64,000 nt of DNA, from the NCBI GenBank assembly GCA_021158465.1, contig JAGGUN010000045.1, positions 5,218 to 69,217 of the forward strand. The letters are read 5' to 3'. Shown piece by piece: positions 26,310 to 28,184 of this stretch (positions within the stretch are counted from its first letter, which is position 1; each line of letters opens with the position of its first letter). Made by a program: the position numbers and the translations under genes. The DNA is from a bacterium. Lineage in GTDB: Bacteria > UBP14 > UBA6098 > 4484-93. The notes under the pieces are model-generated. The model did no database searches and was not told the DNA's origin. It worked only from the letters and a program-made list of their open reading frames with translations.

Positions 26310-28184
26310 ATGAAGTCTATAAGAATCTTTGTGGACGGCGCTTCCCTTGGAAACCCTGGCACCTCCGGTGCAGGTGTTCACATCGAGGACACATCCGGAA
26401 ATACCATCCAAGATCTCTCTATCCCGCTCGGCGAGAAGACCAACAACGAAGCTGAATACCTCGCCCTAATCCACGGACTCAAATTAGCAAAACAGCTGAA
26501 AGTAGATTCCGTTGAACTCTTGTCGGATTCCAAGCTTATGGTGAACCAGATAAACGGCACCTACCGGGTAAAGGCAGCTAACCTGAAGCCCCTACACAAG
26601 GAGGCAAAAGAGCTTTTATCTGGGTTCGCATCCTATCGCATCAGACAGATTCCAAGGGATAAAAACAAAGTCGCTGATCAGCTAGCAAGTGCAGCTACGA
26701 AACCTACACCCCACATCATAACCATAAGAGAGGCTGAATCAGGGCTGAGTTTCGATGACATCCTGCTGGTGCCAGGCTACTCCGATGTTCTCCCTTCACA
26801 GGTTGATGTCTCGGTTGACCTCACAGAGAAGATACACCTCAACATCCCGCTCATCTCGGCAGCAATGGACACAGTAACAGAAGCAGAGATGGCAATAGCA
26901 ATAGCTCGAGCAGGCGGAATCGGAGTGATACACAGGAATATGAGCATCTCCGAGCAAGCGGCACAAGTGAGAAAGGTCAAGCGTGCCGAATCCACACTCA
27001 TCCGAAACCCGATAACACTCCCGCCTGACCTACCGATATCCGCAGCATACGAGATTATGCGGGAAAACGATATTTCAGGTATCCTTATCACAAGAGGACG
27101 CAAGCTTGTTGGAATACTTACAAACAGAGACCTCCGATTTGAAACGGACACATCCCGAAGGATTGAAGAGGTAATGACAAAGGAGCTCGTCGTCGCCAGG
27201 GAGGGGGTAACCGAGGCTGAGGCGCGAGAGATTATGCAAAAACACAAAATAGAGAAGCTACCGATAGTAGATAAAGACGGTAATATAGCGGGACTCATCA
27301 CATTCAAGGATATGATAAAGAAAAGGACTTATCCTTCATCTGCGACAGACGCCCATGGACACCTCCTTGTGGCCGCTGCTGTCGGTGTCGGCAAAGATAG
27401 GGAGGTGAGGAGTCACGCGCTCGTGGAGGCTGGCGTGGACATGCTCGTCATTGACTCTGCACACGGACACTCAAAAAATGTAATAGATGCAACAAAAGAG
27501 TTCAAGAAGAATTTCCCCGATGTTGTCATCGTGTCTGGGAATGTGGCGACAGGAGAAGCCGTATCCGCCTTAATAGATGCTGGAGCCGATATTATCAAAG
27601 TAGGCATCGGGCCTGGCTCTATCTGCACAACAAGGGTCGTCACAGGCGTGGGATACCCTCAGGCTTCCGCTGTACTTAACTGTGCCAAGGTGGCAAAAAG
27701 GTACAATGTTCCAATAATCGCAGATGGAGGGATACGATACTCCGGGGATATCACGAAGGCTCTCGGGCTCGGCGCTGACTCGGTAATGATAGGAAACCTT
27801 CTGGCAGGAACCGAGGAGGCTCCAGGGGAGACTGTGCTATACGAGGGAAGACGCTTTAAGGTATACCGTGGTATGGGCTCCCTCGAAGCAATGAAGAAGG
27901 GAGCAAAGGATAGGTATAATCAGGAAGAGGTGGAAAACTTCTCAAAGCTCGTCCCAGAAGGCGTGGAAGGAAGGGTGTCATACAAGGGACCTGTTGCCGA
28001 TTCAATATACCAGCTTGTTGGTGGCTTGAAAGCAGGAATGGGTATGGTCGGCGCCAGGAACATAGATGAACTACACAAGAAGGCGCGGTTTGTACGGGTA
28101 ACACTGTTAGGCTTGAGGGAAAGCCACCCGCACAATCTGCAACTAACAAAGGAACCACCCAACTATCGGATACCCGACTATTGA
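26310..28184 (+). CDS. guaB: RNase HI - IMP dehydrogenase fusion protein
   Basis: One uninterrupted frame of 624 residues. Residues 1-132 are a type 1 RNase H with all four catalytic acids (D9 in FVDGAS, E47 in NNEAEY, D73 in LLSDSK, D123 in VADQLA). From about 139 on it is a complete IMP dehydrogenase: [19 protein letters not shown], a CBS pair (about 235-345), the catalytic loop [13 protein letters not shown] with Cys439, [10 protein letters not shown] and the flap motif [13 protein letters not shown] makes XMP from IMP, the committed step to GTP. There is no in-frame ATG, GTG or TTG with a ribosome site at the junction, so the two enzymes are made as one chain. The start has AGGAG 5 nt upstream and lies 7 bp after the zinc-ribbon gene. 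Confidence 0.93.

Follow-up and report, generated by a model that had tools for sequence, protein, structure and literature searches.

An RNase HI–IMP dehydrogenase fusion in one bacterial phylum, probably derived by stop loss from a pair of neighboring genes

The closest described counterpart of the protein reported here is the actinobacterial RNase HI–CobC fusion (Rv2228c, MSMEG_4305, SCO2299), whose two domains are both under purifying selection, are joined by a linker with a mean length of 55 residues and are functionally separable in vivo; its authors see drift as the probable cause of its fixation (PMC7466739). The original prediction for the present locus had cited Mycobacterium Rv2228c as an RNase H fused to a CobC-like phosphatase, which agrees with this description. 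The second point of reference is the bacterial IMP dehydrogenase (IMPDH, GuaB), which assembles as a tetramer or octamer (PMC4338043) and changes shape with ATP, GTP or ppGpp (PMC9462843). Nucleic-acid binding by IMPDH was reported by McLean 2004, according to the citing passage in PMC9462843.

The window, by which we mean the whole 64,000-nucleotide stretch that was analyzed, carries on its forward strand a fused gene, rnhA::guaB (26310..28184), that forms one open frame of 624 codons. It starts at ATG 26310, with 7 bases separating this codon from the stop of the zinc-ribbon gene upstream, ends with TGA, and is preceded by a ribosome-binding site apparent from the sequence (AGGAG; 26296..26309, forward strand; duplex energy -6.8). 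RNase HI takes up residues 1-129 and is followed by a linker of ~14 residues and a complete IMPDH with its CBS pair; that a single 624-residue frame joins RNase H to a complete IMPDH is confirmed by the open frame, by Pfam and by TIGR01302. The arrangement resembles the RNase HI–CobC fusion in that an RNase HI of the same type lies at the N-terminus, is connected through a variable linker to a metabolic enzyme and is kept, like its partner, under purifying selection. It differs in that the partner is IMPDH and not a CobC-like phosphatase, and in that the linker measures about 12-19 residues in the fused species as opposed to a mean of 55. When compared with bacterial GuaB (PF00478/TIGR01302), the IMPDH part retains the complete barrel, the Cys loop, the Arg-Tyr dyad and the CBS pair, and is close to solved bacterial enzymes along its whole length; unlike GuaB, it has an RNase HI attached to its N-terminus and no start codon of its own. 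The RNase H–IMPDH domain pair appears to be new, while the fusion of neighboring housekeeping genes is an event of a known kind.

The RNase HI domain (26310..26696, forward strand) is identified by a Pfam match to RVT_3/RNase H at residues 8-129 (2.3e-22) and by PDB sequence matches over residues 2-129 to 3u3g, 4e19 and 3hst, the last being Rv2228c. Its AlphaFold model is confident, with high pLDDT and with strands and helices in the order expected of an RNase H. Judged by its sequence, the domain is of the archaeal/mycobacterial type that lacks the basic protrusion, like Rv2228c and ST0753. The proposed kinship with Rv2228c is supported by the 3hst match and by NF005567, 'bifunctional RNase H/acid phosphatase', which is the best-scoring RNase H model, at 108.6 bits below its cut-off of 326 and over residues 4-130 only; in place of the CobC-like phosphatase of that model, the C-terminal partner is IMPDH. 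Three of the four catalytic residues originally named, D9, D73 and D123, are right, and the fourth, E47, is wrong. E48 of E. coli, the third residue after 'NN', corresponds to E49 of the fusion, and within the motif TNNxxEY the homologous fusion of a second family (genome G005) has V at position 47 and keeps E49; the catalytic glutamate is therefore E49. All of D9, E49, D73 and D123 are kept in the three fusions that we found. A genome search detected no second RNase HI in the source genome, which has one separate RNase HII gene.

The IMPDH domain (residues 144-624; 26739..28181, forward strand) matches PF00478 at residues 145-608 over the whole profile (1-345/345; 1.2e-159) and scores 623 bits with TIGR01302 (IMP_dehydrog) against an equivalog cut-off of 481.5. 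Its PDB matches are to the IMPDHs of B. anthracis, S. pyogenes and other organisms (3tsb among the entries), and the fold matches as well. Two stretches recognized by the Pfam CBS profile form the CBS pair, or Bateman domain, at about residues 230-340 (26997..27329, forward strand). The catalytic Cys439, to which attention had been drawn at the outset, is invariant in 22 aligned IMPDHs, as are R535 and Y536. In the AlphaFold model, which rests on a shallow alignment of 22 sequences, the IMPDH core is confident, and parts of the active-site loops and the C-terminus are low. Since a genome search found a GMP synthase gene and no second, unfused IMPDH in the source genome, the fusion presumably supplies the XMP.

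Comparison across the phylum, sampled as 17 genomes in four families (f1 to f4, with the source genome as G000), makes the fusion visible in stages: separate loci, neighboring genes, one frame with a stop, and one protein. Family f3 has nif3, the zinc-ribbon gene and rnhA together and guaB elsewhere. In family f4 (G004, G007, G009 and G013) the zinc-ribbon gene, rnhA and guaB are separate and stand in the same order with short spacers, with nif3 in front wherever the contig extends that far; in G007 and G009 guaB, with its own ATG, even lies in frame with rnhA across a single TAA. The fusion is present in family f1 (G000, G001) and, in family f2, in G005, with rnpB and recJ behind it. Relatives with the same fusion were thus found in the congener G001 of family f1 (89% identity; 'candidate division Zixibacteria bacterium 4484_93' in GenBank) and in G005 of family f2 (58% identity), both with the frame intact. 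All three fused genomes are probably metagenome-assembled, and one is named as such. In G002, the second member of f2, guaB is cut off by the end of the contig and a genome search detected no RNase HI; a genome search of G011 gave no clear guaB.

Nine genomes of the phylum have the full order nif3, zinc-ribbon gene, rnhA, which recurs in two Desulfofervidaceae and in Desulfurella; the conserved slot that had been postulated for rnhA therefore exists and is older than the phylum. The unfused pair of family f4 has the same genes in the same order behind the same zinc-ribbon gene as the fusion, and differs from it in retaining a stop codon, a spacer and a ribosome site for guaB. Because such unfused neighbors exist in a sister family, the simplest route to the fusion is that two genes already adjacent lost the stop between them, which on this comparative evidence is probably what happened. 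In the IMPDH tree sequences group by family, and the fused ones can form one side of a branch with weak support (79/54), so that a single origin of the fusion is possible.

Outside these two families no further example came to light. A sample of 386 genomes spread over the domain yielded none; of 58 RNase HI loci taken from genome contigs, only that of the congener was fused; and phage and viral records, searched with the IMPDH part only, gave none. The same was true of 395 genomes of the phylum of G185 and of 7 and 39 genomes of two other phyla, under strict E-value limits that a very diverged fusion would escape. The statement in the original prediction that no RNase H–IMPDH fusion had been described agrees with our literature search, which ran mostly outside the subscription journals and returned no paper describing one.

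We consider it probable that the protein is a lineage-specific, vertically kept fusion created by stop loss, and that it is bifunctional, with two largely independent enzymes in one chain. In this model, guaB would have come to sit at the end of the nif3/zinc-ribbon/rnhA cluster in an ancestor, immediately after rnhA, and the loss of the stop codon between them would have generated one polypeptide with a short disordered linker, which would serve as the only detected RNase HI and the only detected IMPDH of the cell. Most likely both domains keep their usual functions, the RNase HI part cutting RNA in RNA:DNA hybrids and the IMPDH part making XMP for GMP synthase. Given that IMPDH assembles as tetramers or octamers, the product should have RNase H domains tethered to it in sets of four or eight; several RNase H sites per assembly are expected from what is known of IMPDH, and any benefit from them is hypothetical. 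We infer that crosstalk between the domains is not essential and that the fusion arose once. Its retention in two families could mean a selected benefit rather than drift.

Several other accounts of the locus have to be weighed against this model. Since the source genome is a draft of 54 contigs and sister genomes carry a stop between rnhA and guaB, one might suspect that an assembly or sequencing error erased a stop or frameshift separating two adjoining genes. However, the frame is open in three separate genomes whose linkers have diverged and whose indels preserve the frame, and all 624 codons are open with purifying selection on both sides of the junction. As the frame is intact in both G001 and G005, the fusion is not a sequencing artefact, and we regard an error as ruled out for practical purposes. 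Purifying selection on both domains is strong: dN/dS between the source genome and its congener is 0.083 for RNase H and 0.068 for IMPDH, with 0.71 for the linker, where sites are few. That linker (residues 130-143; 26697..26738, forward strand) is predicted to be flexible and disordered, with pLDDT <50 at residues 133-143. Its length and sequence differ in each fused species, and between the source genome and its congener it has been almost wholly rewritten, including a 6-base indel that keeps the frame. A further objection to a single product is that the cell might make free IMPDH as well, from an internal start at the leucine codon of GLSFDD or by proteolysis of a linker that should be accessible to proteases, with the fused form in the minority. 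The linker in the window contains no ATG, GTG or TTG, the first such codon being GTG154 inside the IMPDH fold, and the absence of an internal start with a ribosome site, as originally claimed, therefore holds there for these three codons. It does not hold in the congener. There the codon homologous to CTG146 of the window is TTG in the near-perfect Shine–Dalgarno context GGAGG-N5-TTG (-10.7 kcal/mol), which outscores 6 of the 7 sites scored at neighboring gene starts of the window and is matched in strength by just 10 of the 562 start-like codons that lie inside long frames there. It follows that the congener may also make free IMPDH, and that one product may not be the rule everywhere. In the window itself CTG146 has a moderate Shine–Dalgarno-like stretch (duplex energy -7.8), weaker than that of the congener, but CTG starts are rare, and G005 has CTT at the homologous codon and only GTG147, with a weak site, as a nearby start-like codon. 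Dual output with a minor fused form seems unlikely to us.

We are similarly doubtful of a regulatory role for the fusion, in which nucleotide binding by the CBS pair or the oligomeric switch of IMPDH would alter the activity or placement of RNase H, making the clearance of R-loops or primers depend on the levels of GTP or (p)ppGpp. Such coupling would be in keeping with the persistence of the fusion in two families over a large divergence (58% identity), with the shape changes of bacterial IMPDHs in response to ATP, GTP or ppGpp (PMC9462843) and with the nucleic-acid binding for which that paper cites McLean 2004. It would also fit a ppGpp pocket that is conserved in part: of the residues defined in StcIMPDH (PMC9462843), R71, N144, E188, K206 and K210 correspond to R200, N272, E315, K333 and K337 of the fusion, giving five kept out of six that can be mapped, E118 being one that does not map cleanly. 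The sixth, R125, is replaced by D254, which weighs against coupling, as do a disordered and fast-evolving linker that varies in length and sequence by species, the lack of any conserved interface in our comparison, and the RNase HI–CobC precedent, where the fused domains show no dependence on one another in vivo (PMC7466739). The suggestion in the original prediction that the fusion couples hybrid removal to GTP synthesis finds no support here, with stop loss sufficient to explain the origin, a linker of this character and a precedent attributed to drift (PMC7466739). The more far-reaching proposition, that selection has made the fusion a regulatory device in which an IMPDH/CBS nucleotide switch controls the activity or clustering of RNase H, is likewise improbable. 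Were it true, the protein would provide a direct link between the GTP/(p)ppGpp pool and the removal of R-loops or primers. The locus offers a natural setting in which to test whether housekeeping enzymes benefit from being fused or whether drift alone fixes such fusions, and this in the same RNase HI family for which drift has been argued in the mycobacterial fusion.

The neighborhood of the fusion on the forward strand begins with nif3 (DUF34/NIF3; 24457..25575; Pfam PF01784), the first gene of the conserved cluster, and continues with the gene for a coiled-coil/C4 zinc-ribbon protein resembling CT398 (25565..26302; PF02591, PF24481), whose start is placed by GGAGG before ATG 25565. Directly downstream of the fusion lies rnpB, the class A RNase P RNA (28249..28592, forward strand; Rfam RF00010, 302.8 bits), which was correctly predicted to adjoin it, and then recJ (28614..30326, forward strand; DHH, DHHA1 and RecJ_OB in Pfam). 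The order guaB-rnpB-recJ is kept in G001, G005 and G002. The rnpB gene at 28249-28592 overlaps the program-called start of the recJ frame at 28539, and ATG 28614 is the more likely start of recJ.

Further observations concern the surroundings and other RNase HI loci. Two tRNA genes (24204-24358) directly precede nif3, and several families of the phylum likewise have a tRNA pair in this position (L089, L090, L091, L093, L099, L101, L105). From reading the translations, three adjoining genes at 30854-33579 resemble the acyl carrier, beta and alpha subunits of citrate lyase, and the large secreted protein encoded at 20122-23745 looks by eye like a peptidase of the gingipain type that carries a C-terminal sorting domain. 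A distant genome has three tandem RNase H-like matches in long open frames (G049:C34:9076-10344), and an archaeal RNase HI (L034:3583-4539) has a C-terminal extension of ~170 residues without a Pfam match. In Patescibacteria (many of the loci L038-L086), recJ is often found just upstream of an RNase HI of the same type.
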